From an uncultured Pelagibacteraceae bacterium (GTDB lineage: Bacteria > Pseudomonadota > Alphaproteobacteria > Pelagibacterales > Pelagibacteraceae): DNA of 46,921 nt. The stretch is taken from assembly GCA_902583295.1 (NCBI GenBank), contig CACHUY010000007.1, forward strand, positions 1 through 46,921, given 5' to 3'. Each line of letters begins with the position of its first letter. Position 1 is the stretch's first letter. Below the pieces are notes generated by a model. It worked only from the letters and a program-made list of their open reading frames with translations. It was not told the DNA's origin and made no database searches. Shown here piece after piece: positions 19,703-45,892 of this stretch. The translations under genes and the position numbers were made by a program.

Positions 19703-21547
19703 CTAGATGCCTTGTCTTTGTTTGGACTTACCGTCTTTATGAAGTTTTAAAGCCTCTTTATTTTCTTTTGTTGAAGGAATTTCTAAAGTTGGACTGTCCC
19801 AGAAAGCTGAACCTTCCACCCATTTGTAAGCGTGAGTTTTTATAGAAATTACGTAAGTCACATCAGACTTCTTTGCTCTTTTAAAAGCCTCTTCTAAATC
19901 AGAAATAGATGTTACGTGTTCTGATTTTGCTCCCATACTTTCAGCATGCTTTGCAAAATCAACGTCAACTAATCCAGGAGTTTTAGAGCTTTTCAATAAA
20001 TTATTAAACTCTTTTCCACCCTTGAACAATTGCAGTCTATTGATAACTGCAAAACCCCCATTATCACAAACAATTATAATCAGTTTATTTTTTGTAATTA
20101 CTGATGAATAAATATCTGTATTATTTAATAAATAAGAACCATCACCTACGAAAGAAATTACCTCTTTGTCAGGGTTAGCCATTTTTATACCTAGCGCACC
20201 TGAGATTTCATAACTCATACAGCTAAATCCCCATTCAGTTTCATGTGTATTTAATTCTTTTGGTCGCCAAACTTGAACTACCTCTCCTACCAGACCACCT
20301 GCGGCCGTAACCGCAATATCTGTTGGTTCAGAATTTCTATAAATAGCTCCTATTACTTGAATATAGCTTGGAACTTCCTGATTTGTTGGTGCACTTTCTT
20401 TATCAATATGTTGGTTCCAAACTTTTAATTCTCTTTGAGATTTTTCATTCCATTCATCTCCAACTTTCCAATCTCCTAATGCTTCAGAAAGCTCAATTAA
20501 TGAAACTTTAGCATCCCCTATTACTGCTTGAGCTAAATGTTTATTTGCATCAAATCTTGAAACGTTAATTGATAGAAGTTTAAAGTTTTCATTTTCAAAA
20601 TTAGCCCATGATCCTGTGGTAAAGTCAGCAAGCTTTGTTCCAACTGCAATTGCAAGATCAGTTTCTTTAGCAAGGTCATTAGTATTTTTTCCTCCAAGAC
20701 CTCCTATTTGTCCAGCATAATGAGAATGGTCTCTCTTCATTGTTGAATATCCCATTACAGTTTGAGTAACGGGTATATTATGTTTAATTGCAAAGTTACT
20801 TAATTCATCCATTGCATTAGAATAAAAAACTCCACCACCAGAAATAATAATTGGATTTTTTGATTTTTTTATTTTTTCAGCAGCCTCTTTTACTTGAAAA
20901 TCATCTGGTCTTGGCCTTCTTATCGAATGAACTCTTTCTTTAAAAAACTCTTCAGGGTATTCAAATGTCTGCCCTTGAATATCTTGACACAAAGATATGC
21001 AGGCTGGTCCGCAATCAGCTGGATCCAACATTGTTTGAACTGCATTTGGAAAAGACTGAATTATTTGTTCTGGTCTTGTTATTCTGTCAAAATATCTTGT
21101 TACTGGTTTAAACGCATCGTTTGCTGTAATTCCAGGATTATTAAAATGTTCCACCTGTTGTAAAACCGGATCTGGCATTCTATTAGCGTAAGTGTCTCCA
21201 GGTAAAAATAGAATGGGTAATCTATTACTCATTGCAACTGCTGCAGCTGTAACCATATTTGTTGCTCCAGGTCCAACTGATGAAGTTGCTACAAAAATTT
21301 GTTGTCTTCTTTTTCCTCTTGCATAACCTATTCCGGTAAGAGCCATATTTTGTTCATGATGTCCTCTGTATGTAGGTAACTCGTTTTGATTTTCCTCTAA
21401 AGCTTGTCCTAAACATGCAACATTTCCATGTCCAAATATCCCAAATACACCAGGAAATAATGGTTCTTTTTTGCCATCAATTAATATTTTTTGTGCGATT
21501 AAATATTTAACTATTGCATGGGCACAAGTAAGAGTAATTTTTTTCAT
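19703..21547 (-). CDS. iolD: 3D-(3,5/4)-trihydroxycyclohexane-1,2-dione hydrolase IolD
   Basis: IolD is a thiamine-diphosphate enzyme that opens the ring of the dehydrated inosose to give 5-deoxy-D-glucuronate in myo-inositol catabolism. This 614-residue protein is collinear with B. subtilis IolD. It shares FGHGNVACLGQAL, the TPP-activating glutamate in GHHEQNMAL, SSVGPGATNMV, NDAFKPVTRYFDRITRPEQ, and the pyrophosphate-binding GDGSYLLNNTDIYSS. It heads a long minus-strand run with an oxidoreductase and a CUT2 transporter, and it is divergent from an aldehyde dehydrogenase over 92 bases. Acetolactate-synthase-like enzymes are more distant and lack the N-terminal IolD block. Confidence 0.92.
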   Translation of the reverse strand: MKKITLTCAHAIVKYLIAQKILIDGKKEPLFPGVFGIFGHGNVACLGQALEENQNELPTYRGHHEQNMALTGIGYARGKRRQQIFVATSSVGPGATNMVTAAAVAMSNRLPILFLPGDTYANRMPDPVLQQVEHFNNPGITANDAFKPVTRYFDRITRPEQIIQSFPNAVQTMLDPADCGPACISLCQDIQGQTFEYPEEFFKERVHSIRRPRPDDFQVKEAAEKIKKSKNPIIISGGGVFYSNAMDELSNFAIKHNIPVTQTVMGYSTMKRDHSHYAGQIGGLGGKNTNDLAKETDLAIAVGTKLADFTTGSWANFENENFKLLSINVSRFDANKHLAQAVIGDAKVSLIELSEALGDWKVGDEWNEKSQRELKVWNQHIDKESAPTNQEVPSYIQVIGAIYRNSEPTDIAVTAAGGLVGEVVQVWRPKELNTHETEWGFSCMSYEISGALGIKMANPDKEVISFVGDGSYLLNNTDIYSSVITKNKLIIIVCDNGGFAVINRLQLFKGGKEFNNLLKSSKTPGLVDVDFAKHAESMGAKSEHVTSISDLEEAFKRAKKSDVTYVISIKTHAYKWVEGSAFWDSPTLEIPSTKENKEALKLHKDGKSKQRQGI

Positions 21548-21639
21548 GAACTAAGTTTGTCTTTAACTGTGTATAGTGTTTATATATAATTAAATTATAA
21601 ATTAAAAAACCCAGATTAGTAAACTTAAAAATAAATTCT

Positions 21640-23082
21640 ATGTATAGTAACTTTGGACAATTCATTGATGGTAAATGGCAACAAGCTGAAAAAAAAGAAA
21701 CATATGACGTTATAAATCCAGCTACTGAAGAAGTAATTGGAAAAGCATCAAAGGCTTCTTCTATAGAAGTTCAAAAAGCTCTTAAATCTGCTGAGAAAGG
21801 TTTAGAGATTTGGAAAAATACTGCCCCATGGCAAAGAGCTTATATCCTCAGAAAAATTGCTGACCTAATGAGAGAAAGAAAAGACGTTCTTGCAAAATGG
21901 TTAACACTTGAGGTAGGAAAACCTATTGCCGAAGCTGTTGGGGAAGTTGGTGGTGCAGCAGATATTTTTGAATGGAATGCTGAAGAAACTAAAAGAATTT
22001 ATGGACAAACCCAACAAAGTAGATTTCCAGATACAAGAGTTCATGTTTATTATCAGCCAGTTGGAGTAGTAGCTGCTTTAGTTCCTTGGAATTTCCCAAT
22101 TGTGTTAGCTGCAAGAAAGATTTCTACTTCTTTAGCTGCTGGTTGCTCTGTTATTTGTAAGCCAGATGTAATTACACCAGGGGCTGTAATGGAATTAGTT
22201 AATATATGTAAAGAAGCTGGTGTGCCAGATGGAGTAGTAAATCTTCTTTCAGGAGATCCTGCTGAAATATCCAACGAATTAATGGAGTCTGATATAATTA
22301 AAAAAGTTTCAATTACAGGTTCAACAAGAGTAGGCAAAATTATTTTAAAAAAAGCTGCTGACAAAGTTCAAAGAGTTACTATGGAGCTAAGTGGACATTC
22401 TCCTTTCATTGTATGTGAAGATGTGGATATGAATAAGGTAGCTGACATTGCAATTGCTGGTAAATTTAGAAATAATGGCCAAGTATGTATTTCACCTAAT
22501 AGATTTTATATTCAAGAAAATAGAAAAGATGAATTTGTAAGTGCTTTTATAGATAGAGCCAAAAAATTAAAAATTGGTAATGGTATGGATGAAGGTGTGG
22601 AATTAGGACCTTTAAGCACTGCAAAGAGATTAGAAGAAATAGAAAAATTAGTTGAAACTACAAAGAAAGAGGGTGCTAAAGTTTTAATGGGTGGGAAAAG
22701 ACCCTCAGGTTTCAATAAAGGATATTATTACGAACCAACAGTTTTCGATGACGTTAAGGACAACTATACAATCATGAAGGAAGAGCCTTTTGGTCCATTG
22801 GTTCCAATTTTAACATTCAAAAATTTTGATGAGGTGATTGAAAGAGCTAATGATAACGATCTAGGTTTATGCAGTTATCTCTACACAAATTCAATGGACA
22901 AAGCTCACATAGGTTCTGAAAAATTAGAAACAGGATGTGTTGCAGTTAATACAGGAGTGGTAGCACTTGCAGAAGCACCATTTGGAGGAATAAAACAAAC
23001 TGGTTATGGACGTGAAGGCGGCTCAGGAGCAATCAAAGACTATTTAAATGTAAAATATACTCACATGGGTTTAAAAATCTAA
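21640..23082 (+). CDS. NAD(P)-dependent aldehyde dehydrogenase
   Basis: This 480-residue aldehyde dehydrogenase oxidises an aldehyde to a carboxylate. The motif PWNFPIVLAARK carries the oxyanion Asn, VSITGSTRVG follows, the general-base Glu is in VTMELSGHSPF near residue 250, and the nucleophile Cys is in NNGQVCISPNRF near residue 285. It resembles the succinate-semialdehyde and 2-oxoglutarate-semialdehyde dehydrogenase branch. It is not a CoA-acylating IolA/MmsA type, judging by the NNGQVCISPNRF active site. It is divergent from iolD and lies 2 bases before an aldolase gene, so it probably works in the same sugar-acid pathway. Confidence 0.88.
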   Translation: MYSNFGQFIDGKWQQAEKKETYDVINPATEEVIGKASKASSIEVQKALKSAEKGLEIWKNTAPWQRAYILRKIADLMRERKDVLAKWLTLEVGKPIAEAVGEVGGAADIFEWNAEETKRIYGQTQQSRFPDTRVHVYYQPVGVVAALVPWNFPIVLAARKISTSLAAGCSVICKPDVITPGAVMELVNICKEAGVPDGVVNLLSGDPAEISNELMESDIIKKVSITGSTRVGKIILKKAADKVQRVTMELSGHSPFIVCEDVDMNKVADIAIAGKFRNNGQVCISPNRFYIQENRKDEFVSAFIDRAKKLKIGNGMDEGVELGPLSTAKRLEEIEKLVETTKKEGAKVLMGGKRPSGFNKGYYYEPTVFDDVKDNYTIMKEEPFGPLVPILTFKNFDEVIERANDNDLGLCSYLYTNSMDKAHIGSEKLETGCVAVNTGVVALAEAPFGGIKQTGYGREGGSGAIKDYLNVKYTHMGLKI

Positions 23083-23084
23083 TT

Positions 23085-23879
23085 GTGAGAAAAAATAAAA
23101 TTAAACAAATGATGAAAGACGGTAAGCCCGTCATTAATGGTTGGTGTGCGATTCCTAGCACTGCATCTGCTGAAGCAATGGCTCATCAAGGTTGGGACTC
23201 ATTAACTGTGGATATGCAACACGGGTTAGTAGATTACAGTAATGCACTACCAATGATGCAAACGATATCAACAACAGATGTAACTCCTTTAGCAAGAGTA
23301 AATTGGAACGAACCAGGTCAAATAATGAAAATTTTAGACGCTGGATGTTATGGAATTATATGCCCAATGGTGAGTAATAAAAAGGAGGCAGAAAATTTTG
23401 TTCAAGCATGTATGTATCCACCCGATGGTTATAGAAGTTTTGGCCCTGTAAGAGGTTTAATTTATGGAGGAGCTGATTATGCAGATCATGCTAATGAAGA
23501 AATATTAAAGCTGGCAATGATAGAAACCAAAGAATCTTTGGAAAATCTTGATGAGATTATGTCTACACCAGGTGTCGATGGTATTTACATTGGTCCAGCA
23601 GACTTAAGCTTAGCAATAGGTGAAAAACCTGGTTTTGATAGACCAGAATCTACAAAAGCTTATTCTCAAATTTTAAGAATCTTGGAACATGCGAAAAAAA
23701 ATAATATTTTTTCAGGAATTCATAACGGAACTACAGAGTATGCAACTAAGATGATTGAAAAAGGTTTCAATTTTGTAACTATAGCATCTGATTTGAGAGC
23801 TTTAAGTGCTGGTGCTAAATCTACTGTAGATAAAATGAAGGGATCTTTATCAAAAAAAGACGATAACGCTACTTACTAA
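23085..23879 (+). CDS. HpcH/HpaI family 2-keto-3-deoxy acid aldolase
   Basis: This is a 264-residue class II aldolase of the HpcH/HpaI family, which splits 4-hydroxy-2-oxo acids into pyruvate and an aldehyde. The catalytic His is in VDMQHGLVD and the pyruvate-binding Arg in ARVN. The metal ligands are the Glu of MIETKE and the Asp of GPADLS. The start is GTG at 23085, 2 bases after the aldehyde dehydrogenase stop, since no ATG is in frame near the conserved beginning. It overlaps the convergent PanB-like gene by 4 bases. Its aldehyde product could be a substrate of the neighbouring dehydrogenase, or the reverse. Confidence 0.88.
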   Translation: MRKNKIKQMMKDGKPVINGWCAIPSTASAEAMAHQGWDSLTVDMQHGLVDYSNALPMMQTISTTDVTPLARVNWNEPGQIMKILDAGCYGIICPMVSNKKEAENFVQACMYPPDGYRSFGPVRGLIYGGADYADHANEEILKLAMIETKESLENLDEIMSTPGVDGIYIGPADLSLAIGEKPGFDRPESTKAYSQILRILEHAKKNNIFSGIHNGTTEYATKMIEKGFNFVTIASDLRALSAGAKSTVDKMKGSLSKKDDNATY

Positions 23880-24691
23880 TTTAGTTGATCTAAAAATTCC
23901 TCAAATTGTTTTTTTTCTAAATTTGATGATTGGTTTTTTCCTGGAAATTTTCCATTCATTGAATCTTTTTTAAAAGCTTTTAGAGCTTTTACTCTTTCAT
24001 TTTTAATTTCATTTCTCAATTTTAATAAATTTCCATAAGCTTTGGAATGTCTTGGAGGGTTTTTAGTATCACCACAAATATCTTCCATAAATAAATACAT
24101 CACATCAGCGTTTTTGCCTGATCCTAAAGAAACTGTAACTATATCAGTGCGCTTTGAAATTTCACCCATAACATTTTCTGGTATAACTTCGCACTCTGCA
24201 GAAAATGCACCAGCTTCTTCTAATCTTTTAAACTTTTGAAAAAGTTCATACGCTTCATTTGCAGTTTTACCTACTGCTCGCAACCCACCAATCCAAGTCG
24301 ACTTTCTAGGTACTAAACCTAGATGACCCATCACTGGAACATCTTCTTTAGATAGCATTTCAACTATATGCATACTTCTTGGTGTCATAACTGCATCTGC
24401 CCCATTTTCTAATGCTTTAAATGCACCTCGCATAATATCTTCTTCTGTCACAAATTCATTTAATCCTAAAGCTGCAGTTAAAAATAAGTTTTTTGAACCT
24501 TCTCTTACAGAAATTACATTTTTTGCATTTGAGATTATCATATCAAAACCTGCTTTTTCAGCTGCATCAGCTTCCTCAATACTATTTGCCGTAACTTGTG
24601 TAAATTTTCTTTTTCCTTTTAATGTTTTTAAATCTCCAACAGTCAAAGTCCTTTTAGCTGGTTTAGCTGCCCATGTATAAATATTTTTCAT
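23876..24691 (-). CDS. PanB-like protein lacking the catalytic residues of KPHMT
   Basis: This 271-residue TIM-barrel protein is recognisably related to ketopantoate hydroxymethyltransferase (PanB), with VPVMGHLGLVPR and LEEAGAFSAECEVIPE in the right order. The residues that make PanB work are changed. The GDS metal-site motif is replaced by SNA, the second metal aspartate (LADLPF in E. coli) by LTAALGL, and the KIEGG segment by MTPRSM. Only the late glutamate survives. I infer a different reaction, perhaps as an aldolase or lyase of the wider phosphoenolpyruvate/ketopantoate superfamily. The gene overlaps the stop of the regulator gene by 4 bases, so the two are coupled. Confidence 0.72.
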   Translation of the reverse strand: MKNIYTWAAKPAKRTLTVGDLKTLKGKRKFTQVTANSIEEADAAEKAGFDMIISNAKNVISVREGSKNLFLTAALGLNEFVTEEDIMRGAFKALENGADAVMTPRSMHIVEMLSKEDVPVMGHLGLVPRKSTWIGGLRAVGKTANEAYELFQKFKRLEEAGAFSAECEVIPENVMGEISKRTDIVTVSLGSGKNADVMYLFMEDICGDTKNPPRHSKAYGNLLKLRNEIKNERVKALKAFKKDSMNGKFPGKNQSSNLEKKQFEEFLDQLN

Positions 24692-25104
24692 TTAATACCT
24701 TTGTAAAGAATATCTCTTCTATCAATAAACCCTTCAAAAGTTTTTATTGTAATTACTGATGGTAATATAAAAATTGATCTCTTATCTTTTTCATTTCTGA
24801 TTATTCTAAAAAAACCTTTTTTGATGGCTGTATCAATATAAATATTTGAAGTTAAATAGGATTTTTCTATTACTTTTAATAATTGGTTTTTAGTTATGGA
24901 TTTATTTTTATAATAAGCAAGCATAACCATGTGAAGCATAATCCAGTGCTGAGGTGTTAATGAAAACCAATTAAGTAATTCATTTTCCAATCTACCTTCA
25001 AAGTCTCCTAATGAAACTTCAGCTAATTTAATTCTTTTTTGAGTAATTTTAGGAATTTTTTTTTGTTCCTCAAAATGCTTAGGGTACTTAAACTGTTTCT
25101 TCAT
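24688..25104 (-). CDS. MarR-like winged-helix transcriptional regulator
   Basis: This 138-residue protein has the layout of a MarR repressor: a dimerisation helix, the LTPQHWIMLHMVMLAYYKNK helix leading into the recognition region, NQLLKVIEKSYLTSNIYIDTA as the DNA-reading helices, and a wing with the EKDKRSIF motif that corresponds to the DxR of MarR proteins. It lies between the DUF1907 gene and the PanB-like gene on the same strand. A natural target is the palindrome at 26145-26168 in the divergent promoter. The ligand is unknown. The match is by pattern and is moderately divergent. Confidence 0.68.
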   Translation of the reverse strand: MKKQFKYPKHFEEQKKIPKITQKRIKLAEVSLGDFEGRLENELLNWFSLTPQHWIMLHMVMLAYYKNKSITKNQLLKVIEKSYLTSNIYIDTAIKKGFFRIIRNEKDKRSIFILPSVITIKTFEGFIDRRDILYKGIK

Positions 25105-25139
25105 CTTAAAATATTATCTCAAAGAGTATTAATTTAATA

Positions 25140-26108
25140 TTATTTTTTATTACTCAATTCTTTATAAATATTATTAACTCTGTGTACTTCTTCGGCAGTA
25201 TTAAAATAACCTTCATATTCAATTTCCTCTGGAGTTACATCAAAATGATAGTGGCCAGCTATATTTTGTTTTGTATATGAGTGAAAATGGGTATGCTCAC
25301 CAGACTCTCTTAAGTTAAGATCTCCACCTGTTGGATCACCTGTCCATAAAACACTATAACCTTGTAGTTCTGGCCCGATAGGTTCATAAAATTGTAAAAA
25401 ATCCTTAACACACTTCATCTGTTTAGGATCATAATATTCATGCTTAATATCCGAATAATCAGGTTGAACATGAGATCTTATTTTTCCCTTTAAAATTCTA
25501 AATACACCAGCTAAAGCTAAATGTTCGTTTTTTTCAATTTTTAAATTATCTTTCAAAGCTTTTCTCATAGCTTGAGGAAGAGAACCCTGCTCACCAGATC
25601 TTCCATGTATTTTAATTTTGATAACTTTTCCTTTTACTCCATCTGTATAAAAAACGTTGCCTAAACCACCATGTTTTCTTGCTGTATATTTTTCAGCAAT
25701 ACATTCCTTATTTAGTCCAACCCGAGCTATTATAGATTTTGACTCAGATGTAATTAAATTTTCATTAATAATCAGTTCTCCACAATGGCCGTCCAAACAA
25801 GACATAGCACCTGAACCAGCACCTAATGCATATGATTTTTCTGAACCAATAATTTTTGAAATTTCTTCATAATCAAACTCAGCACCTATAAATTTAGGGT
25901 CATGCATGTAAGGCTCACCACCAACATCAATAATTTTTTGATTACCGCTTATACCTTCGGATGGACATCCCCAATTTCTTAAATTAGGGCAATCAACTAT
26001 AGAAACCTCAACAACTTTAAAATTATTTGATAATCCAACTTGTAGGGCCTTAGATATTTTTTCTAGTGAGTATTTTGTAAAGTTTGATTTTTCAATATTT
26101 AATTGCAT
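25140..26108 (-). CDS. DUF1907 metalloprotein, homologue of human C11orf54
   Basis: This 322-residue protein matches the DUF1907 family, whose best-known member is human C11orf54, a zinc-binding protein with reported ester hydrolase activity. Shared landmarks are VEVSIVDCPNLRNWGCP near the start, ALGAGSGAM in the middle, and the metal-binding end EHTHFHS...AGHYHFDVTPEEIEYEGYF. The histidines of HTHFxx and GHYHxD that bind the metal in the human protein are all present. It opens a minus-strand run with the MarR-like and PanB-like genes and is divergent from the PanE-like gene. The physiological substrate is unknown in bacteria. Confidence 0.82.
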   Translation of the reverse strand: MQLNIEKSNFTKYSLEKISKALQVGLSNNFKVVEVSIVDCPNLRNWGCPSEGISGNQKIIDVGGEPYMHDPKFIGAEFDYEEISKIIGSEKSYALGAGSGAMSCLDGHCGELIINENLITSESKSIIARVGLNKECIAEKYTARKHGGLGNVFYTDGVKGKVIKIKIHGRSGEQGSLPQAMRKALKDNLKIEKNEHLALAGVFRILKGKIRSHVQPDYSDIKHEYYDPKQMKCVKDFLQFYEPIGPELQGYSVLWTGDPTGGDLNLRESGEHTHFHSYTKQNIAGHYHFDVTPEEIEYEGYFNTAEEVHRVNNIYKELSNKK

Positions 26109-26144
26109 TGCTAATTAAGCTATATTTAATTTTGCATAATGTCT

Positions 26145-26168
26145 ATAGATAATATATATAATATCTAT
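26145..26168. promoter_or_regulatory. 24-bp palindrome, candidate operator
   Basis: The sequence ATAGATAATATA followed by TATAATATCTAT forms a dyad with 11 of 12 base pairs matching. It lies in the 87-base divergent promoter between the DUF1907 gene and the PanE-like gene. The nearby MarR-like regulator is the obvious candidate to bind it. The local AT-richness raises the chance of a random match, but the G-C pair inside the arms is also preserved. Confidence 0.45.
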
Positions 26169-26195
26169 ACATAAATTAATTTAAAGAAAGTCTAA

Positions 26196-27140
26196 ATGAT
26201 TAATAAAGATTTAAAAGTTGGTGTTCTAGGTGCCGGTGCTATGGGCTGTTTATTTGGAGGTTTGTTAGCAGAAAAAGGTTTAAATGTAACATTGATTGAT
26301 GTTTGGAAAGAACATGTAGATACCATAAATAAAAATGGTCTTAAGATGGATGGACATGGTGGCAATAGATTTATCAAAGTCAAAGCTACAAGTGACCCTT
26401 CAAGTGTAGGTGTAGTTGATGCAGTAATTGTTATGTGCAAAGCAACATCATTGGAGCCTGCTTTAAAAAGTGTAAAAAATATTATTGGTGAAAAAACTGC
26501 CTTCATGTCATTTCAGAATGGGTTTGGTCACGAGGCAATTATGCAAGAAATAGTTGGAACCGAAAAAGTTTTAGGCGGAACAACCACTCAAGCATCAAAC
26601 ATTTTAGGTCCTGGACATATTATGAACCATGCATCTCTACCCTCATGGATTGGTGAATATGAAGGAGGTATGAGTGATAGAGTGAAAGATATTGCTGATA
26701 CTTTTACAGCTTATGGATTAGAAACAATTGCAGCAGATGATGTTAAGAAGAGAAAGTGGATGAAATTATTTGCATTAACCGCAATAGGTCCACTTTCAGC
26801 TATTTTTGATCTCCATCATACTGATTTGTATATAAATAATACTGCAAATAAAATTTCTAGATCTCTTGGAAAGGAAATCATTCTAGAAACTAGAAAGGTT
26901 GCATTGGCAGATGGTGTAGAAGTATCAGAGGACGAATGTCTTTTCATGTTTAACAAGATTGTGGACTCTAACCAGACTAATAAATCTTCAATGGCTTTCG
27001 ATGTTCAATATAAACGAAAAACTGAAATTGACTTTATTAGTGGAGTAGTATCAAAAATGGGTAAAAAACACGGTATTAGTACACCTTTAAACGACCTGAT
27101 GTATAAAATGATTAAAGTAAAGGAGGGAATGTATAGCTAA
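26196..27140 (+). CDS. PanE/ApbA-like 2-keto acid reductase, altered active site
   Basis: This 314-residue protein has the ketopantoate reductase fold. The nucleotide motif GAGAMGCLFGG lies near residue 10, and MSFQNGFGHE and VLGGTTTQAS follow. The catalytic lysine is kept in RKWMKLFALTAIGPLSAIF. In E. coli PanE this helix carries two asparagines (KLAVNCVINPLT) that contact the substrate, and here they are replaced by Leu and Gly. A different 2-keto acid is therefore likely. It is divergent from the DUF1907/MarR/PanB-like run, which suggests one regulated unit. It is followed directly, with no spacer, by a Fe(II)/2OG oxygenase gene. Confidence 0.8.
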   Translation: MINKDLKVGVLGAGAMGCLFGGLLAEKGLNVTLIDVWKEHVDTINKNGLKMDGHGGNRFIKVKATSDPSSVGVVDAVIVMCKATSLEPALKSVKNIIGEKTAFMSFQNGFGHEAIMQEIVGTEKVLGGTTTQASNILGPGHIMNHASLPSWIGEYEGGMSDRVKDIADTFTAYGLETIAADDVKKRKWMKLFALTAIGPLSAIFDLHHTDLYINNTANKISRSLGKEIILETRKVALADGVEVSEDECLFMFNKIVDSNQTNKSSMAFDVQYKRKTEIDFISGVVSKMGKKHGISTPLNDLMYKMIKVKEGMYS

Positions 27141-28010
27141 ATGCTAAGAGTTGAAAAATTAAAAAAGTTTAAAAATAATTTTCCAATTTTAGTTGGTAAC
27201 AAAGCAATTTCAAATCATTTTTGCACGTCTTTAATTAAAGAAATAAGTTCTTCTGAAACATTTGATGATTTAATCATGGGCGGAAGAAGCAGAATTAACA
27301 AGGGCTCAAAAAACTTCAAAAAATATATCAATAAATCTAAAATTTCGAAAAAACTTTTTCAATTATTTAATAGTAAAAAGTTTTACAATAAAATTGAGAA
27401 TGTTTTTAAAAAAAATTTTAAAAATCAATCATGGGTAAATTTGTATCCACCAAAATTATTTAATACTAAAAAATTTACAATAAAAAAAAAGATCAATTCA
27501 ACCGAGCTTAAAGCTTTACTTGGTAAAAACTACAAACACACAAAAGTAAATTTGGATATTGATTTCTCAGTCTCAAAAGGTGGATACAGATTAAGACCAC
27601 ATCGTGATGATATAACCAGGTTATATAATTTTTTAATTTATTTAACAGATATTCCAAGAAAAAATGGGGGATCTTTGACAATTTATAAAAAAAAGGCAAA
27701 AAAAAATATTAGAAAAAGTTTTAAAAGATTTCCAAAAATGAGTGAACTTGAAATAGTAAAATCATTTACCCCTAGAAAAGGAACTGTAGTTTTTTTTCAA
27801 TCAACTCCAAATTCATATCATGGAGTTAAACGTTTTATAGAAAATAACTGTCCTAAAAGGTTTTTTATTTATGGAAGTTATGCACAAAATACCCCTGTTA
27901 TATGGAAATATAAAGATGCTACATATTATCCACATATAATTTATTCAAAAAAAAGAATGCTTACCTCTTTCCATGATGCAAACTATTTAACTTCAAAACC
28001 TAAATATTGA
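27141..28010 (+). CDS. Fe(II)/2-oxoglutarate-dependent oxygenase
   Basis: This 289-residue protein carries a prolyl-4-hydroxylase-like double-stranded beta-helix in its second half. The iron ligands are the His and Asp of RPHRDD near residue 153 and the distal His in SYHGVKRF near residue 230, followed by the RFFIYGSYAQ strand with the basic residue that binds 2-oxoglutarate. The lysine-rich first half is not recognisable. The ATG directly follows the PanE-like stop codon, and the PhyH-type gene follows after 30 bases, so the three are probably one transcript. The substrate is unknown. Confidence 0.75.
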   Translation: MLRVEKLKKFKNNFPILVGNKAISNHFCTSLIKEISSSETFDDLIMGGRSRINKGSKNFKKYINKSKISKKLFQLFNSKKFYNKIENVFKKNFKNQSWVNLYPPKLFNTKKFTIKKKINSTELKALLGKNYKHTKVNLDIDFSVSKGGYRLRPHRDDITRLYNFLIYLTDIPRKNGGSLTIYKKKAKKNIRKSFKRFPKMSELEIVKSFTPRKGTVVFFQSTPNSYHGVKRFIENNCPKRFFIYGSYAQNTPVIWKYKDATYYPHIIYSKKRMLTSFHDANYLTSKPKY

Positions 28011-28040
28011 TATTTTTTTGTGATAAAATAAAATTTAAAT

Positions 28041-29030
28041 ATGAAAAATAATCTTAAAAAAAAATTACATGAACAGGGTTATTTAATAGTTAAAAATATA
28101 CTTAACTTTAAAAAAGATCTTAAACCAGTTTTGAATGATATGGAATTTGTGATGGATTGCTTAATTCAAAAATATGCAAGAAAGAAAAATATACAGAAAA
28201 TTTTAAATTTGGATTTTAAAAAAAAATACTCATACGTTTCAAAATTAAATATTCATGATCTAGATCAATACTTCAATACCAGATTACCTAGAGATCATGT
28301 AAAACCAGAAAGTGATTATTTTGCTACTCAATCGCTGTGGAACTTAATTACAAATAAAAATATTTTAGATGTAGTTGAAAAGATTTTAGGTAAAGAAATA
28401 ATGTCTAATCCTGTGCAAAATACAAGAATTAAGCAACCAGAAAAAAAATTGCCAAAAAGTTCTGTGCGTGATGGATTAAGTGGAAGAACACCATGGCATC
28501 AAGATGCAGCTGTTCTAAATTCCAAAGGACAAAAGTTAACTGAAATGGTCACTGTTTGGATACCTTTTACTAAAACTACAAAAAAAAATGGCTGTATGAT
28601 TACAGTCAAAGAAATTAATAAAATGGGATTATTAAATCATGTACCAGGATATAGAGGCCAAGTTGAATTAAAAAATAGTAAATTATTAGATAAAATGAAA
28701 CATGTCCCTTTAGAAGCGGATGTGGGCGACATTATTCTTTTACACAAACATTCTATACATTGCTCATTACCAAATAGATCAAATGATTTTAGAATAAGTG
28801 CCGACCTTAGATATAATGTTGCTGGACAACCGTCTGGTAGAGAGCCACTTCCAAACTTTTATGTTAGAAGTAAAAATAAAAATAATATTAAAATTCAAAA
28901 TTTTAAACAGTGGTTAACACTTTGGGAGAAAGCTAAAGAAAAATGTATACCAAGAAAATATGCATTTAAATATCCACTCCCTACTTTCAAAAATAATAAA
29001 AGAGACCTTTCGAATTTAATTAACTCTTAA
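28041..29030 (+). CDS. Phytanoyl-CoA dioxygenase (PhyH) family protein
   Basis: This 329-residue Fe(II)/2OG oxygenase belongs to the PhyH family. The iron ligands appear as TPWHQDAAV near residue 153 and the distal His in HKHSIHCSLPNRSNDFRIS near residue 240, with the 2OG-binding Arg a few residues on. VTVWIPFTKTTKKNGCMI is the typical core strand of bacterial PhyH proteins. Family members hydroxylate varied small molecules, including phosphonates, quaternary amines and amino acids, so phytanic acid is not implied. It lies between another 2OG oxygenase gene and a dehydrogenase gene on the same strand. Confidence 0.82.
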   Translation: MKNNLKKKLHEQGYLIVKNILNFKKDLKPVLNDMEFVMDCLIQKYARKKNIQKILNLDFKKKYSYVSKLNIHDLDQYFNTRLPRDHVKPESDYFATQSLWNLITNKNILDVVEKILGKEIMSNPVQNTRIKQPEKKLPKSSVRDGLSGRTPWHQDAAVLNSKGQKLTEMVTVWIPFTKTTKKNGCMITVKEINKMGLLNHVPGYRGQVELKNSKLLDKMKHVPLEADVGDIILLHKHSIHCSLPNRSNDFRISADLRYNVAGQPSGREPLPNFYVRSKNKNNIKIQNFKQWLTLWEKAKEKCIPRKYAFKYPLPTFKNNKRDLSNLINS

Positions 29031-29070
29031 TTAAATATTTTATAAAACAAATATAAGTGTATAAGTGAAT

Positions 29071-30027
29071 ATGAAAAAAATTCTTGTCATTCAGCCTATT
29101 CATGAAGAAGGTATCAATCTTTTAAAAGATAATTCAGATTTTGAATATGAGGTTGTGGATAATATTGACACAGAATTTCTAAAATCAAAAATTAAAGACT
29201 GTGATGGTATTTCAATTCGTACCGCTAAACTTAGTGGGGATGTAATTGAAGCTGCTAATAATCTTAAAATTATTTCAAGACATGGTGTTGGATATGACAA
29301 TATAGATTTAAAGGTTTCAAAAAAAAAAGATATTACTTTAGCCATTACGGCAACTGCAAACGCAGTGGCGGTAGCTGAACATGTAATGTTCATGATTTTA
29401 AATATTTCTAAAAGAGGTAGTATGTATGATGACACTGTAAAAAGTGGAAAATTTAATGAAAGAAACAAATTACCTAAAACGGTAGAGCTTTGGAATAAAA
29501 ATATTTTAATTGCAGGATTTGGTAGAATAGGACAAGCCTTAATTAAAAGGTGTCTCGGTTTTGAAATGAATGTTTTTGTTTTTGATCCTTTTGTTTCTAA
29601 AGAATTTATAGAAAAACGTGGCGGTACAAAAGCGGACAATTTAAGCGAAGCCTCAAAAGATATGGATGCAATGTCACTTCATATTCCCTTGAATGATGAA
29701 ACAAAAAATATAATTAATTATGAATTACTTAAATCTATGAAAAAGAATTGCATTATAATCAATGCCGCCAGAGGAGGTATTGTAAATGAAGTGGATTTAG
29801 ATAGAGCTTTAAACGAAAATTTAATTTTTGGTGCTGGTTTGGATGTATTTGAAACTGAACCTCCTGCTGAAAACAATCCTCTTTTAAAAAATAAGAAAGT
29901 TTTTTTGAGTCCACATACTGCAGCTTTCACAGAAGAATGTATGACAAGAATGGGTAAAGAAACTATTCAAAATATATTTGATTTTTTTGATGGTAATTTA
30001 GAAAATTCAAAAAAAGTAAAACTATAA
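29071..30027 (+). CDS. D-3-phosphoglycerate-dehydrogenase-like hydroxyacid dehydrogenase
   Basis: This is a 318-residue D-2-hydroxyacid dehydrogenase. The coenzyme motif AGFGRIGQALIKR lies near residue 150, with catalytic Arg (NAARGG), Glu (ETEPP) and His (SPHTAAF) in order. It lacks the C-terminal ACT domain of serine-pathway SerA, so a role in catabolism of a 2-hydroxy acid is more likely. I chose ATG 29071; an in-frame GTG at 29065 would add two residues. The gene overlaps convergent iolE by 6 bases. It follows the two oxygenase genes, which could supply a hydroxylated substrate. Confidence 0.82.
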   Translation: MKKILVIQPIHEEGINLLKDNSDFEYEVVDNIDTEFLKSKIKDCDGISIRTAKLSGDVIEAANNLKIISRHGVGYDNIDLKVSKKKDITLAITATANAVAVAEHVMFMILNISKRGSMYDDTVKSGKFNERNKLPKTVELWNKNILIAGFGRIGQALIKRCLGFEMNVFVFDPFVSKEFIEKRGGTKADNLSEASKDMDAMSLHIPLNDETKNIINYELLKSMKKNCIIINAARGGIVNEVDLDRALNENLIFGAGLDVFETEPPAENNPLLKNKKVFLSPHTAAFTEECMTRMGKETIQNIFDFFDGNLENSKKVKL

Positions 30028-30921
30028 AGCTATTTTAAGATCAATGTCTGCACACACCTTTGATAAATATTTGAAACCTTTTTTTGCATATTCTAAAGGA
30101 TTTGCTTTGGCTGGATCTTGTTCTGCTTCTACAACTAACCAGCCCTTATAATCAATATTTTTTAAATATTTCAATAAAGGTTTATAATCAATATATCCGT
30201 CTCCAGGTACGGTAAAAGCTCCCTCTAAAAATGCTTTTCTGAAACTCCAATCTTTTTCAAGGGATTTATTTAAAATATCTTCTCTCATATCCTTACAGTG
30301 AATATGAATTATTCTATCTTTATAGTCTTTTGCTATTTTTACAGAATTACCTTTGGCAAATAGCATGTGACCAGTATCAAGAATTAATTTTACTTGGTCA
30401 CTTGTGTTATCTAACAGTCTTTTTGTGTCGTCCTCTGTTTCAATCACAGTACCCATGTGATGATGATATGCTAAAGGCATATCTTGGTCTTCTAAATATT
30501 TTCCCATCTCAGAAATTTTTTTACAATATTCATTCCATTCATCTTTATTCATTTGTGGTCTACTGGATAAAGGTCTGTTAGGGTCGCCAGCAATAGAGTC
30601 TGATACTTCGGCAAATACAATACATGGTGCTTTACAATCTTGAAAAAGTTTTAATTGTTCTTGAACTAACATAATTTCATCCTTTACAGAATTTTTTCTT
30701 AAATTTGCACTGTACCAGCCTGAACATAACTTTAAGTTATGTTTTTGTAACAAAGGAATAAGTTCCTCTGATTTTTTTGGAAACTTTCCTCCAGATTCTA
30801 TTCCTGAAAAACCTGCTTCACTTGCTTCTGATAAACACTGTTCCAATGGAGTATCACCACCAAGTTCAGGCATGTCATCATTACTCCATGCTATTGGTGC
30901 TATTCCTAATTTTACTGACAT
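30022..30921 (-). CDS. iolE: Myo-inosose-2 dehydratase IolE
   Basis: IolE removes water from 2-keto-myo-inositol to give the trihydroxycyclohexanedione that IolD hydrolyses. This 299-residue TIM-barrel protein of the xylose-isomerase-like fold matches IolE along its length: LGIAPIAWSNDDMPELGG at the start, YHHHMGT, LDTGHM, HIHCKD and VVEAEQDP, which carry the metal ligands. It stands alone on the minus strand, divergent from a Gfo/Idh/MocA gene and the iolG-like gene, across only 39 bases. Confidence 0.93.
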   Translation of the reverse strand: MSVKLGIAPIAWSNDDMPELGGDTPLEQCLSEASEAGFSGIESGGKFPKKSEELIPLLQKHNLKLCSGWYSANLRKNSVKDEIMLVQEQLKLFQDCKAPCIVFAEVSDSIAGDPNRPLSSRPQMNKDEWNEYCKKISEMGKYLEDQDMPLAYHHHMGTVIETEDDTKRLLDNTSDQVKLILDTGHMLFAKGNSVKIAKDYKDRIIHIHCKDMREDILNKSLEKDWSFRKAFLEGAFTVPGDGYIDYKPLLKYLKNIDYKGWLVVEAEQDPAKANPLEYAKKGFKYLSKVCADIDLKIAL

Positions 30922-30960
30922 AATACTTATATTTGTTATGATATATAAAATCTTAATCTA

Positions 30961-32097
30961 ATGAATACAAATAAATTATCCTTAGGTATTGTTGGTGGAG
31001 GTCCAAAATCTTGGATAGGTCATGTGCATCGAATTTCTGCAAGATTTGATGACAAGTACGAAATAGTAGCTGGTGTATTCTCAAGAAATTCAAAATTGTC
31101 TATAAACTTTGGAAAAACTTTGGGTATCGCTAAAGATAGATGTTATTCAACCTTTAAAGAGATGGCTTCAAAGGAGTCGAGAAGAAATGATGGTATTCAA
31201 GTAGTCTCAATAATGACACCTCCATCAAGTCATCAAATTATTGCTGAAAAATTTATTGAAAAAAATATAAATATTATTTCAGATAAACCATTTGCTGGTA
31301 ATCTAGATCAAGCAAAAAAACTTTATAAAAAAATAAAATCAAATAAAAAAATTAAATATGCTTTAACTCATAACTACTCAGCTTACCCAATGGTTAGAGA
31401 AGCTAAAGTTTTAATAGAAAAAGGTAAAATTGGAAAAATTGAATATGTGAATGTTGAATATATCCAGGATTGGTCTGGTGGAACAAAAATTAATGTAAGA
31501 AATGCTAAAAAAAAACTAAAATGGAAAATAGATAATAAAATAGTTGGTGCATCTGCTGTTCTTAATGAAATTGGAACTCATGCTTACCATTTAGCTACAT
31601 ATATTTCAGGACTAAAAGGAGAAAAAATTTTCGCTGACATTAAACAAATTTCAAAAAAAATAAAAATGGATGATAACGCACAAGTAATGATTAATTTTAC
31701 AAACGGTGCAAAAGGTATGTTTTGGACAAGCGTCATGGCTAAAGGTGGAGTTTATGGTCTTAGAATTAGAGTATTTGGTTCTAAAGGAAGCTTAGAGTGG
31801 GTTCAAAATGACCCAAATTATCTAAAATTAAATCCAGACAAGGGTGCAGTAAGATACCTTGAAAGAGGTTTTCATAATGCTGAGCTTTCAAAAAAATTCT
31901 CTAGAATAAAATTTGGACACCCTGAAGGATATTTAGATGCATTTGCAAATATTTATAGAGAATTTGCTGACTCTTTGAAAAATAAATCAAAAAAAAGATA
32001 TTTTTATCCAAATGAGGATGAAGGATTAGAAACAGCAAAATTTATATATGCTTGTAAAATTTCATCAAAAAATAAAAGATGGGTCAAAATCAAATAA
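30961..32097 (+). CDS. Gfo/Idh/MocA family oxidoreductase
   Basis: This is a 378-residue NAD(P)-dependent oxidoreductase. The N-terminus is VGGGPKSWIGHVHR, a variant of the Rossmann motif seen in a distinct branch that often accompanies iol genes. SDKPFAGNLDQAKK carries the conserved lysine (Asp replaces the usual Glu of EKP), and NEIGTHAYHLATYISG holds the catalytic histidine. Its end overlaps the iolG-like gene by 19 bases and it is divergent from iolE, so it is very probably an inositol or inosose dehydrogenase. The isomer it prefers is unknown. Confidence 0.85.
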   Translation: MNTNKLSLGIVGGGPKSWIGHVHRISARFDDKYEIVAGVFSRNSKLSINFGKTLGIAKDRCYSTFKEMASKESRRNDGIQVVSIMTPPSSHQIIAEKFIEKNINIISDKPFAGNLDQAKKLYKKIKSNKKIKYALTHNYSAYPMVREAKVLIEKGKIGKIEYVNVEYIQDWSGGTKINVRNAKKKLKWKIDNKIVGASAVLNEIGTHAYHLATYISGLKGEKIFADIKQISKKIKMDDNAQVMINFTNGAKGMFWTSVMAKGGVYGLRIRVFGSKGSLEWVQNDPNYLKLNPDKGAVRYLERGFHNAELSKKFSRIKFGHPEGYLDAFANIYREFADSLKNKSKKRYFYPNEDEGLETAKFIYACKISSKNKRWVKIK

Positions 32098-33092
32098 ATA
32101 TTGCATTACTTGGTCTTGGAAGAATAGGCCAAATGCATGCCTTAAATTTAACTTATCATCCAGAATTCAATTTAAAATATATATTTGATATTGATAAAAA
32201 TTTAAATAAAAAATTGGCAAAAAAACATAAGTCAATTCCTATCAACAATCCAAATATTGCATTCAATGATAAGAGCATTAAATGTATTTTTATAGCCACA
32301 AGTACTAAGACACATTTGAATTATATTGATAAAGCAGTTAGAAATAAAAAAGTTGTATTCTGTGAAAAGCCATTAGACTTAAGTTTAAAAAAAATTAATG
32401 AATACAAAAAAAAACTTTCTAAGTTAAATCCAAAGATACAAATAGGTTTTAATAGAAGATATGATGCGGGCCACAATTCTTTAAAAAAAAATCTTATTAA
32501 TGGAAAAATTGGAAAATTAGAAAAAATAATAATTACAAGTCGGGACCCTGCACCACCTTCAACTGATTACTTGAAAAATTCTGGTGGTATTTTTAAAGAT
32601 ATGATGATCCACGACTTTGATTTAGCAAGATACTATGTGGGTTCAGATGAGTTTAGATATTTATTTGCAACAGGTGAATACTTTAAAGATAAAAAATTTA
32701 AAAAAGTAAAAGATTTAGAATTAGCTACAGTGGTTATGAAAACTGGGAAAGGTGTCCAGTGTGTAATAACAAACTCAAGACACTGTAGCTTCGGTTATGA
32801 TCAAAGAGTTGAGTTATTTGGTGATAAAGGGATGGTAATTTCTGAAAATCAAAGAGATTTAGAAACAACATCCTATTTTAAAAATTCAACTGGTAGTAAA
32901 CAGTCTTTTAAAAATTTTTTTATTGAGAGATATTTAGAGGCATTTAAAAACCAATTAAGTGACTTAGCAAAATTTTGTAAAAAAAACATTAAACCAAGGG
33001 CAAATTTTGAGGATGGAAGAATGTCGGTGATATTGGCTGAGACGGCAAATAAATCTTTGAAAACAAAAAAATTTGAGCTCATTAAATTTTAA
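32079..33092 (+). CDS. iolG: Inositol 2-dehydrogenase IolG-like
   Basis: IolG oxidises myo-inositol to 2-keto-myo-inositol with NAD, the first step of the pathway. This 337-residue protein has GLGRIGQMHALNL near residue 12, FCEKPLDLS with the catalytic lysine near residue 100, GFNRRYDAGHN, and GGIFKDMMIHDFDLARYYVG, where the Asp and His of the IolG active site lie. It starts inside the end of the upstream oxidoreductase gene (19-base overlap). iolE is divergent next door, which makes the assignment firm for an iol function, though scyllo-inositol or other isomers remain possible. Confidence 0.87.
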   Translation: MGQNQINIALLGLGRIGQMHALNLTYHPEFNLKYIFDIDKNLNKKLAKKHKSIPINNPNIAFNDKSIKCIFIATSTKTHLNYIDKAVRNKKVVFCEKPLDLSLKKINEYKKKLSKLNPKIQIGFNRRYDAGHNSLKKNLINGKIGKLEKIIITSRDPAPPSTDYLKNSGGIFKDMMIHDFDLARYYVGSDEFRYLFATGEYFKDKKFKKVKDLELATVVMKTGKGVQCVITNSRHCSFGYDQRVELFGDKGMVISENQRDLETTSYFKNSTGSKQSFKNFFIERYLEAFKNQLSDLAKFCKKNIKPRANFEDGRMSVILAETANKSLKTKKFELIKF

Positions 33093-33137: not shown

Positions 33138-33728
33138 ATGAAAAATATTAAACCATTTGGTCCCTCAATTGGAAAAACAAAAATATCTAAAAGGTTTCTA
33201 AATAAACTAAATGAGGAATTTGATAAAAAATCAAATAACAAAAAAATTGATTACAGTTCAAAATTAGCTAGTCAAATAAAAAATGAAATAAAGATTTCAA
33301 ATAATTTTATTAAAAAATATTTATTTAAAGAGCTAAAAATAAATATAAAAAAATTTTTAGCCAACGAACAAATTAAAAATATAAAAGAGATTAGAATATT
33401 AAATCTTTGGGTCGTTAGACAATTTAAAGGTGAATATAACCCTATTCATTATCATGATGGTAATTTGTCAGGAGTTGGATATTTAACTTTACCTAAAAAC
33501 ATGACCAAAAATATTCTAGTCAAAAATAAAAAACTTAAAACCAATGGAACTATTGACTTTATAAACGGACAAAAAGCATTTCTTAGTAATAGTATTTATA
33601 ACCTAATTCCAAAAATTGGAGACCTAATAATATTTCCAAACTATCTTATGCATACTGCATATCCATTTAACATAAATGGAGAAAGACGATCATTTTCTTT
33701 TAATGTAAAAATTATTTTTAAAAAATAA
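33138..33728 (+). CDS. Putative Fe(II)/2-oxoglutarate oxygenase
   Basis: This 196-residue protein is of the small 2OG-oxygenase group common in marine bacteria and phage. The motif NPIHYHDGNLSGVGYLTLP corresponds to the NxxHxHxxxxxSGVYYL core with the first iron ligands. LIIFPNYLMHTAYPF carries the distal His, and RRSFSFN the 2OG-binding Arg. The stop codon directly abuts the ATG of the homocysteine methyltransferase gene, so the two are coupled. The substrate is unknown. This is the third oxygenase of the superfamily within 7 kb. Confidence 0.75.
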   Translation: MKNIKPFGPSIGKTKISKRFLNKLNEEFDKKSNNKKIDYSSKLASQIKNEIKISNNFIKKYLFKELKINIKKFLANEQIKNIKEIRILNLWVVRQFKGEYNPIHYHDGNLSGVGYLTLPKNMTKNILVKNKKLKTNGTIDFINGQKAFLSNSIYNLIPKIGDLIIFPNYLMHTAYPFNINGERRSFSFNVKIIFKK

Positions 33729-44095: not shown

Positions 44096-44752
44096 ATGGA
44101 TAATAAAATTTTAGAAATCTTTATTCCAGGTCCTGCTGGACGTCTTGAGGCTAAATATTTTAAAAGTAAAAAAAATACATCTCCTGTAGCGCTAGTATTA
44201 CAACCTCATCCACAATATGGGGGGACCATGAATAATAAGGTTGTAGTAGATACATTCCACACATTTATGGAAAATGATTTCTCTGTTTGTAGAGTCAACT
44301 TTAGAGGTGTTGGAAAAAGTGATGGAGAATTTGATAATGGCCAAGGAGAACTAGCTGATGCAGCAGCTGCTTTAGACTGGTTGGAAAGAGAAAATTTTGA
44401 TAATTCTCAATGTTGGGTATCTGGTTTTTCTTTTGGATCATTGATAGCTATGCAGCTACTAATGAGAAGACCTGAAATAAATAGATTTATAGCTATTTCA
44501 CCTCAACCTAATGTTTATGATTTTTCTTTTTTATCACCCTGTCCTACATCTGGAATGGTAGTTTATGGAAAAAAGGATGAATTAGTTCCAGTAGAGTATA
44601 TTGCAGAACTTGATAAAAGACTGAGTTCACAAAAAGGAATTAAAGTTGAATTTCACGCTATAACAGATGCCAATCATTTTTTTTCTAAAACAGATAACGT
44701 GTTAATTAAAAGTCTTGATAAATATATTAAAAAAGAGACCGCTCTTTATTAA
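44096..44752 (+). CDS. Alpha/beta hydrolase of the KANL3/Tex30-like type
   Basis: This is a 218-residue alpha/beta hydrolase. It has LVLQPHPQYGGTMNNKVV near the start, the RVNFRGVGKSDGEFDNG loop, the nucleophile serine in GFSFGS near residue 116, Asp in YGKKDELVP and His in TDANHFFSK. The HPQYGGTMNNKV motif is shared by a broadly conserved group of bacterial hydrolases of unknown substrate. It is divergent from iscR over 137 bases and overlaps the convergent anmK by 4 bases. Confidence 0.83.
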   Translation: MDNKILEIFIPGPAGRLEAKYFKSKKNTSPVALVLQPHPQYGGTMNNKVVVDTFHTFMENDFSVCRVNFRGVGKSDGEFDNGQGELADAAAALDWLERENFDNSQCWVSGFSFGSLIAMQLLMRRPEINRFIAISPQPNVYDFSFLSPCPTSGMVVYGKKDELVPVEYIAELDKRLSSQKGIKVEFHAITDANHFFSKTDNVLIKSLDKYIKKETALY

Positions 44753-45585: not shown

Positions 45586-45892
45586 GAAAACCTATTAGAT
45601 CAATTTCATGCTTATATTTTAATAATAATTGGTTTATTTTTTCTGCATGAAAAACTGTGATTTTTCTCTCTAGATTTCCCAATTCTTTAGAATATTTAAA
45701 TAAATCATTCTCACCTGAAACTAAGTTTCTTAATCTAATTAACTCTGCTTGAAGTTCGACGTCATACTCAAAATACTCATCTAAAATGTTGTAAAATTGA
45801 TATTGCCCATCAGATTGTATTATTGACATATCCACTCCATCCATTGAAGTTCCACTCATTAATCCAATGGATGTATATAATTTTTGTTTCAT
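45485..45892 (-). CDS. anmK: Anhydro-N-acetylmuramic acid kinase, N-terminal part (frameshifted)
   Basis: This frame carries the start of AnmK: SIGLMSGTSMDGVDMSII, the nucleotide-binding opening of the family, and LIGFHGQTIFHQPQKK about 110 residues later. After the poly-A run the frame becomes nonsense (NHKTAWRRKVAIS) and stops. Together with the C-terminal frame it makes one gene from 44749 to 45892 with a +1 insertion in the run. It is divergent from tyrS over 45 bases. Whether the break is real, a sequencing error, or corrected by slippage is discussed in the findings. Confidence 0.85.
   Translation of the reverse strand: MKQKLYTSIGLMSGTSMDGVDMSIIQSDGQYQFYNILDEYFEYDVELQAELIRLRNLVSGENDLFKYSKELGNLERKITVFHAEKINQLLLKYKHEIDLIGFHGQTIFHQPQKKNHKTAWRRKVAISTIKKKGSL
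45549..45558 (-). other. Ten-base A run at the anmK frameshift
   Basis: On the minus strand ten A residues separate CCAC from TCACAAAACAGC. With nine A residues the frame would read HQPQKKITKQLGDG, exactly the AnmK family sequence. With ten it runs out of frame. Confidence 0.85.

Follow-up and report, generated by a model that had tools for sequence, protein, structure and literature searches.

A possible catabolic cassette with a DUF1907 protein and two oxygenases in the inositol cluster of some SAR11 bacteria

We analysed a stretch of 46,921 nucleotides (the window; contig 7, CACHUY010000007.1, of assembly GCA_902583295.1) from an uncultured Pelagibacteraceae bacterium with a source genome of 1.04 Mb in 42 contigs. 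Six open reading frames (ORFs) in two divergent runs, located where a preliminary description of the window had placed them, encode a PanB-like protein, a MarR-like regulator and a DUF1907 protein on one side, and a PanE-like dehydrogenase and two Fe(II)/2-oxoglutarate (2OG) oxygenases on the other. Comparison with related genomes established the extent of this block, the linkage of its genes and the conservation of a putative operator between the two runs. We propose, with a probability of about 0.5, that the block serves as an optional catabolic unit with local regulation in the inositol cluster of some Pelagibacter (SAR11), and that it acts on an inositol-related compound. The catabolic role with oxygenation suggested in the preliminary description fits the findings. 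SAR11 bacteria are the most numerous cells of the surface ocean, so that a regulated catabolic cassette conserved among some of them points to a dissolved compound of importance. The features of the block, in window coordinates, were as follows.

23876–24691, minus strand: PanB-like protein, a divergent relative in the ketopantoate-hydroxymethyltransferase family and not always present; PF02548, 4.4e-36
24688–25104, minus strand: MarR-like, putative winged-helix regulator; TIGR01889, 2.7e-4, weak and below the cut-off
25140–26108, minus strand: DUF1907 protein, homologous to human C11orf54/PTD012 and predicted to be a metal-dependent decarboxylase of beta-keto acids; PF08925, 4.2e-58
26109–26195: divergent intergenic region of exactly 87 bp
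26140–26171: palindromic putative operator TGTCTATAGATAATATATATAATATCTATACA, with both arms conserved
26196–27140, plus strand: PanE/ApbA-family dehydrogenase, predicted NAD-dependent hydroxyacid dehydrogenase; TIGR00745, 237.2 bits, above the cut-off
27141–28010, plus strand: Fe(II)/2OG oxygenase (2OG-FeII_Oxy_3), usually present; PF13640, 1.3e-10
28041–29030, plus strand: Fe(II)/2OG oxygenase of the PhyH family; PF05721, 3e-18

Pfam matches backed five of the six genes (PanB, DUF1907, ApbA/PanE, 2OG-FeII_Oxy_3 and PhyH).

An optional block within an inositol cluster

The preliminary description had treated the six genes as a stand-alone module. This frame was too narrow: the block is enclosed by a larger inositol cluster (19703–33092) with IolD, IolE and an IolG-like gene, of which it is an optional piece. 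IolD was found above the cut-off in 33 of 150 relatives, comprising 16 of the 17 genomes with DUF1907 and 17 others. In 16 of these 17 IolD-positive genomes without DUF1907, the gap between the HpaI-type aldolase and the 2-hydroxyacid dehydrogenase was −1 to 28 bp, and the fetched stretch contained no cassette gene. The same distance in the window was 5,185 bp. The seventeenth genome (G005, locus L140), in which a PanB-like gene lies where the contig ends, was excluded from the 16 empty sites. In one insert-free relative (L126), IolD was 95% identical to that of the window. Because 16 IolD-bearing sister loci join the aldolase directly to the dehydrogenase, the six-gene block is, as judged from these sequences, an optional cassette of approximately 5.2 kb, which was either inserted or else cleanly lost. 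The genes of the host cluster were as follows.

19703–21547, minus strand: IolD; TIGR04377, 800.6 bits (cut-off 715)
21640–23082, plus strand: aldehyde dehydrogenase, similar to succinate-semialdehyde dehydrogenase (SSADH-like); TIGR01780, 497.5 bits, below the cut-off of 646.35
23085–23879, plus strand: HpaI-type aldolase; PF03328, and 7o5i at 1.4e-59
29065–30027, plus strand: D-2-hydroxyacid dehydrogenase, bordering the empty site on the right; PF02826
30022–30921, minus strand: IolE; TIGR04379, 408.8 bits (cut-off 290)
32079–33092, plus strand: IolG-like inositol 2-dehydrogenase; TIGR04380, 349.9 bits, slightly below the cut-off of 355

The fraction of guanine plus cytosine was 0.25 in the MarR-like gene and 0.24 in the 2OG-FeII_Oxy_3 gene, and 0.28–0.36 in the remaining genes of the block and host cluster.

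Linkage and distribution in SAR11

Linkage of these genes beyond the window's genome was tested and found, which upholds the conserved module suggested in the preliminary description. The set comprised 96 SAR11 loci (16 from DUF1907 genomes and 80 named loci). Five contigs occur in it twice, one copy per collection, and two more locus pairs have identical central 600 bases. A locus was included in the count for a gene only where its contig extends far enough on that side. Gene order was identical across the 96 loci except for missing members. PanE-like accompanied DUF1907 in 89/89 loci and was divergent from it in all 94 loci where it was seen. The PhyH gene was present in 82/82 loci, the 2OG-FeII_Oxy_3 gene in 79/82 and the MarR-like gene in 86/95. 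The flanking genes of the host cluster were equally constant, with the HpaI-type aldolase in 87/87 loci, the aldehyde dehydrogenase in 83/83 and IolD in 78/78; in the 93 loci that show the aldolase, its distance to the closest cassette gene never exceeded 115 bp. Gene content past PhyH differed between loci, and in one genome (G050) DUF1907 lay on a contig of 3.7 kb that lacks IolD. PanB-like, listed as a member in the preliminary description, is not a core member: it was present in 76 and absent in 16 of 92 loci, and its absence needs at least 10 changes on the DUF1907 tree.

DUF1907 was detected in 17 of the 150 relatives and was confined to one genus; the nearest relatives of the window's protein belonged to Pelagibacteraceae genomes (97–99% identity), which identifies the source organism as a SAR11 Pelagibacter. 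The best 80 of 268 stretches with DUF1907 relatives were all titled Pelagibacter or Pelagibacteraceae. Outside SAR11, it was found in none of 384 other genomes in a class sample and none of 397 in an overlapping phylum sample, and searches of plasmids and viral contigs gave no match. A transfer of DUF1907 from eukaryotes would be a guess. The PhyH protein had a single plasmid match, in Pantoea, without an inositol gene among the annotated neighbours. PanE-like matches occurred in 273 plasmid records, with 34–35% identity among the 15 matches listed.

Divergent promoter and MarR-like protein

The palindrome in the shared 87-base promoter, to which the preliminary description had drawn attention, was present, with arms at 26144–26156 and 26157–26169 that are 92% complementary. 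Its weight comes from conservation rather than from the single sequence. The exact 30-mer occurred once with up to three mismatches allowed and in none of 100 shuffles, the pattern having been taken from the site itself. The intergenic sequences of 94 loci reduced to 53 distinct forms. Both arms were kept in all 46 distinct promoters from loci with the MarR-like gene, and 25 of the 32 palindrome columns were invariant, versus 8 of 55 outside it. Since both arms are conserved in 46/46 distinct homologous promoters, the palindrome is more than a chance repeat. The nine loci without MarR-like gene contributed seven forms of 63–64 bp; all seven lacked the left arm and three had the right arm. On the DUF1907 tree, the rows without the MarR-like gene fell into a single clade that requires one change (support 100/97).

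Because the palindrome is kept with the MarR-like gene and broken without it, local control by the MarR-like protein is likely. Joint control of both runs through the palindrome as predicted operator, as put forward in the preliminary description, is thus likely as well. No second operator copy was found within the window, and the MarR-like protein was therefore taken to be a local regulator and not one of IolD or the aldehyde dehydrogenase. A palindromic putative operator in the divergent promoter of its own operon is a trait of MarR-type regulators, and it is present here. The protein itself had no Pfam match at 1e-3 and scored 21.2 bits to TIGR01889 (cut-off 62.6). In its structure model (predicted local distance difference test, pLDDT, 42.7), the order helix-helix-helix-strand-strand fitted a winged helix at low confidence.

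Predicted activities of the cassette proteins

The DUF1907 protein matched PF08925 over profile positions 1–285 of 285 (197.4 bits, cut-off 25) and aligned with 1xcr over residues 10–313 (7.1e-36), including the histidines of the EHTHF...GHYHxD motif. H272, H274, H286 and H288 were at least 98% conserved among 85 distinct DUF1907 sequences, and three of these histidines are presumably the zinc ligands. According to a 2025 commentary, human C11orf54 is a 3-dehydro-L-gulonate decarboxylase with a structure related to acetolactate decarboxylases, three histidines bind zinc, and in rotifers DUF1907 is fused to a 3HCDH-type dehydrogenase (PMC12435205). The same 3-dehydro-L-gulonate decarboxylation is stated in a second source (PMC12921845). 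The label 'ester hydrolase' traces to an assay with p-nitrophenyl acetate (PMC12435205), and the ester or lactone hydrolysis assigned to DUF1907 in the preliminary description is outdated. By analogy with the human protein, the SAR11 DUF1907 protein is probably a decarboxylase instead of a hydrolase.

The SAR11 and human proteins share a common family, a near full-length 1xcr alignment and the histidine motif. In both settings, the DUF1907 protein is paired with a dehydrogenase having a Rossmann domain; the human enzyme (EC 4.1.1.34) acts after L-gulonate 3-dehydrogenase. The SAR11 set departs from the human route in several ways: its dehydrogenase is a PanE-family protein, it includes a PanB-like protein and two 2OG oxygenases besides, and its DUF1907 protein is bacterial, lies within an inositol cluster and has a predicted activity. 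The divergent pairing of the PanE-like gene with DUF1907 would fit an oxidation followed by a decarboxylation. The cassette supplies a bacterial gene context for the newly assigned DUF1907 decarboxylase.

The PanE-like protein scored well above the TIGR00745 cut-off of 141.35 bits. In E. coli PanE, K176 and E256 are catalytic, N180 and N184 are the substrate asparagines, and R31 serves NADPH. K176, E256, N98 and S244 were kept in all 71 SAR11 PanE-like rows, whereas N180, N184 and R31 were replaced by L, G and V, respectively, in all 71. Because of these three replacements, the alignment argues for a substrate other than that of ketopantoate reductase, and for NAD rather than NADPH. In both oxygenases, the HxD...H metal triad was at least 98% conserved among 74 distinct sequences each (H154, D156 and H227 in the 2OG-FeII_Oxy_3 protein; H153, D155 and H240, together with R251, in the PhyH protein).

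The PanB-like protein was below the NCBIfam panB equivalog cut-off (94.9 versus 207.55 bits), and its structure model was of too low quality for use (pLDDT 37.9). In PanB, D45 and D84 are the Mg ligands, and K112, H136 and E181 also have assigned roles. Residues were compared with E. coli PanB in an alignment for which 35 of the 98 distinct rows were retained, namely six of the 69 from SAR11 and all 29 from elsewhere. H136 and E181 were kept in 35/35 rows, and K112 was lysine in none. The window's protein has A56, A74 and M102 at D45, D84 and K112, with a poor alignment around D45.

PanB-like relatives in other bacteria

Outside SAR11, PanB-like relatives reached 63% identity. A plasmid search yielded 641 records with a PanB-like match, of which 30 were listed and 8 loci examined, two of them unannotated and interpreted by tblastn. 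In all eight (seven rhizobial, one roseobacter), a desaturase- or hydroxylase-type oxygenase was adjacent or in the same run. The class sample provided a single locus from each of 20 non-SAR11 genomes; L171 and L172, two additional copies from one genome, were left out. A MocD-type or PhyH gene was present in 9 of these 20, and all 10 such genes lay no more than 2.5 kb from the PanB-like gene; the MocD-type matches did so in 6/6 cases, three of which come from one genus. PanB-like proteins thus tend to adjoin an oxygenase and sometimes inositol genes. Proteins annotated as vitamin enzymes are thereby tied instead to oxygenases and inositol genes.

MocDEF demethylates rhizopine (O-methyl-scyllo-inosamine). 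In a study of similar rhizobial mocDEF loci, a neighbouring TIM-barrel gene was concluded to serve an inositol derivative (PMC3538637). The rhizobial mocDEF loci and the FixV/Msi119 loci, which have been linked to an inositol derivative (PMC3538637), resemble the SAR11 cassette in having an oxygenase beside a PanB-like gene and an inositol derivative as presumed substrate (L145–L148). They differ in that 2OG oxygenases take the oxygenase position in SAR11. A tblastn search with six query proteins found no match to MocD, MocE or MocF in the window at 1e-3, and no DUF1907 or PanE-like match was found at 1e-8 within 9 kb in L145–L148.

Two further loci were observed. In another alphaproteobacterium, one run at locus L192 (5346–15113 and beyond) combines a PanB-like gene and a MocE-family ferredoxin with IolG, a fusion of IolC and aldolase, and an IolD homologue at 42% identity; a search of this locus found neither a MocD-type nor a PhyH gene. 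In L177 (9231–12558), a locus with 31% GC, a tandem PanB-like pair lies next to two PhyH genes; its genome, a 1.6-Mb alphaproteobacterium, has four PanB-like copies.

Inositol pathway of the host genomes

Compared with the canonical pathway IolG-IolE-IolD-IolB-IolC-IolJ-IolA, the SAR11 cluster has IolD and IolE above the cut-offs and IolG slightly below. Unlike in the canonical pathway, an aldehyde dehydrogenase, an HpaI-type aldolase and a 2-hydroxyacid dehydrogenase come after IolD. IolB was not found in 20 genomes, many incomplete (17 with DUF1907 and 3 without IolD above the cut-off), nor in 17 further IolD genomes. IolC was above the cut-off in none of the 20, many of which are incomplete, and sub-cut-off kinase matches occurred in 19. 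The DKGP aldolase DUF2090 was found in none of 34 genomes, again many incomplete, in a search that covered DUF2090 and left the Bacillus-type IolJ outside. Among 14 controls, Bacillus subtilis, Caulobacter and Corynebacterium gave IolB matches in the same searches, and Caulobacter also gave DUF2090. Because IolB, IolC and DUF2090 were not found, the lower inositol pathway seems to be replaced by the aldehyde dehydrogenase, the aldolase and the 2-hydroxyacid dehydrogenase.

The nearest solved relatives of the host-cluster aldolase were structures of the hydroxyketoacid aldolase SwHKA. This enzyme is from Sphingomonas wittichii (PMC10099721). The SwHKA-like aldolase is a member of the host cluster and not of the cassette. 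Together with the aldehyde dehydrogenase and the 2-hydroxyacid dehydrogenase after IolD, it would make up a possible non-phosphorylated lower inositol pathway. IolE was above the cut-off in 16 of 17 DUF1907 genomes versus none of the 3 others searched. Methylmalonate-semialdehyde dehydrogenase was above the cut-off in 18 of 23 genomes, including two without IolD above the cut-off. The cluster also has a ribokinase (above the cut-off) and a fucose-mutarotase-like gene (below the cut-off). A literature search turned up no paper that names inositol breakdown for SAR11, which is not proof of absence.

Proposed function and alternatives

In the proposed route, the MarR-like protein would repress both runs at the palindrome until a substrate-derived ligand arrives. 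The PhyH and 2OG-FeII_Oxy_3 oxygenases would then oxidise the inositol-related substrate at a CH or CH3 position, and the PanE-like dehydrogenase would convert a hydroxyl group to a ketone with NAD+, yielding a beta-keto acid with an alpha-hydroxyl group. The DUF1907 protein, like human C11orf54, would strip CO2 to leave a ketose or inosose for use by the Iol enzymes, the aldolase and the aldehyde dehydrogenase encoded nearby. The PanB-like protein may be a dispensable auxiliary lyase or transferase for the one-carbon unit from the oxidised group. As candidate substrate, an inositol with a C- or O-methyl group would fit, and so would an inositol-derived aldonic or uronic acid; the choice of C-methyl or O-methyl inositol is a guess. 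A wider scheme is speculative and rather unlikely in full: an oxygen-dependent dismantling of substituted inositols (C-/O-methyl cyclitols) that employs a mainly eukaryotic decarboxylase family, with PanB-like proteins as a separate family that would release a one-carbon unit together with oxygenases of the mutually unrelated MocD and PhyH types across Alphaproteobacteria.

Several points weigh against this proposal. We only infer the order of reactions, the substrate and product, and the role of the PanB-like protein. The PanE-like family acts mostly on 2-keto acids and not on 3-keto acids. The PanB-like protein has lost the metal ligands of PanB, with aspartate at D45 in 3 and at D84 in 1 of the 35 rows. 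Recombination or hitch-hiking inside one genus could partly explain the tight linkage. The AT-rich 5.3 kb around the palindrome holds 74 inverted repeats, among which it is not the longest, and its loose form (two TCTATA 8–16 bases apart) occurred in 8 of 100 shuffles. The joint absence of MarR-like gene and operator is, on the evidence of the tree, one evolutionary event, and membership in the MarR family is weak by sequence, with a poor structure model. Among the non-SAR11 genome loci, 11 of 20 had no MocD-type or PhyH neighbour, including that of the closest PanB-like relative (L174, 63%); of these 11, L175 and L193 are close to the end of a contig, and L192 has the MocE ferredoxin. Three of the nine positive loci (L188, L190 and L191) come from one genus, and the PhyH search model, unlike the MocD-type model, was partly seeded with the PhyH proteins that it later found.

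Alternative functions would draw on the same genes. The animal glucuronate-xylulose route begins from inositol, and an equivalent step in SAR11 would have the PanE-like protein replace L-gulonate 3-dehydrogenase (CRYL1) and DUF1907 make L-xylulose from 3-dehydro-L-gulonate. The cassette would then handle inositol-derived uronic or aldonic acids, and the oxygenases would make or trim a precursor. The human DUF1907 protein is reported to have precisely this activity, and the rotifer fusions with 3HCDH dehydrogenases also agree with it (PMC12435205). The PanE-like protein matches 3HCDH_N (22.8 bits, cut-off 22), and the ribokinase and fucose-mutarotase-like genes lie within the cluster. The best score of the PanE-like protein is nevertheless to the PanE family and not to 3HCDH, and two 2OG oxygenases have no place in the route, so we consider it unlikely, if tenable. 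A function downstream of IolD is doubtful. There, the aldehyde dehydrogenase would make 5-deoxy-glucarate from 5-deoxy-glucuronate, and the cassette would oxidise and decarboxylate it, bypassing IolB and IolC. The negative searches for IolB, IolC and DUF2090 are in line with such a bypass, as is the position of the cassette beside IolD, aldehyde dehydrogenase and aldolase in every locus with sufficient contig. The 16 IolD genomes without the cassette, however, make the host aldolase, aldehyde dehydrogenase and 2-hydroxyacid dehydrogenase the likelier bypass, and oxygenases would be unnecessary.

The order given in the preliminary description, namely oxygenation, keto acid reduction or cleavage, and ester or lactone hydrolysis by DUF1907, could appeal to the older p-nitrophenyl acetate assay of the human protein, yet the commentary that recounts this assay itself reports decarboxylase activity and the acetolactate-decarboxylase-like structure (PMC12435205). 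We regard that route as very improbable. A second PanB/PanE set for pantothenate, or a pantoate salvage, is suggested by the family names (PF02548, TIGR00745) and hardly credible otherwise. The window's genome has a separate PanB with a canonical score (G000:C10, 305 bits), the PanB-like protein has lost the metal ligands and the PanE-like protein the substrate asparagines, and the absence of PanB-like needs the repeated changes on the tree given above; a pantothenate role was rejected on these grounds.

Other observations

A sugar-type ATP-binding cassette (ABC) transporter followed IolG in most cassette-free loci (L124–L139), as judged by eye, and was mostly missing from cassette-bearing genomes with IolG nearby (L020, L026–L032); L024 and L126 were exceptions to this contrast. 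Cassette-bearing cells could import a different substrate. A small 2OG-FeII_Oxy_5 protein (33138–33728) is encoded immediately after the IolG-like gene. Further along the window, a kinase gene, which we take to be AnmK-like, is apparently split into two overlapping minus-strand ORFs (44749–45892), which may reflect a frameshift or a sequencing error.

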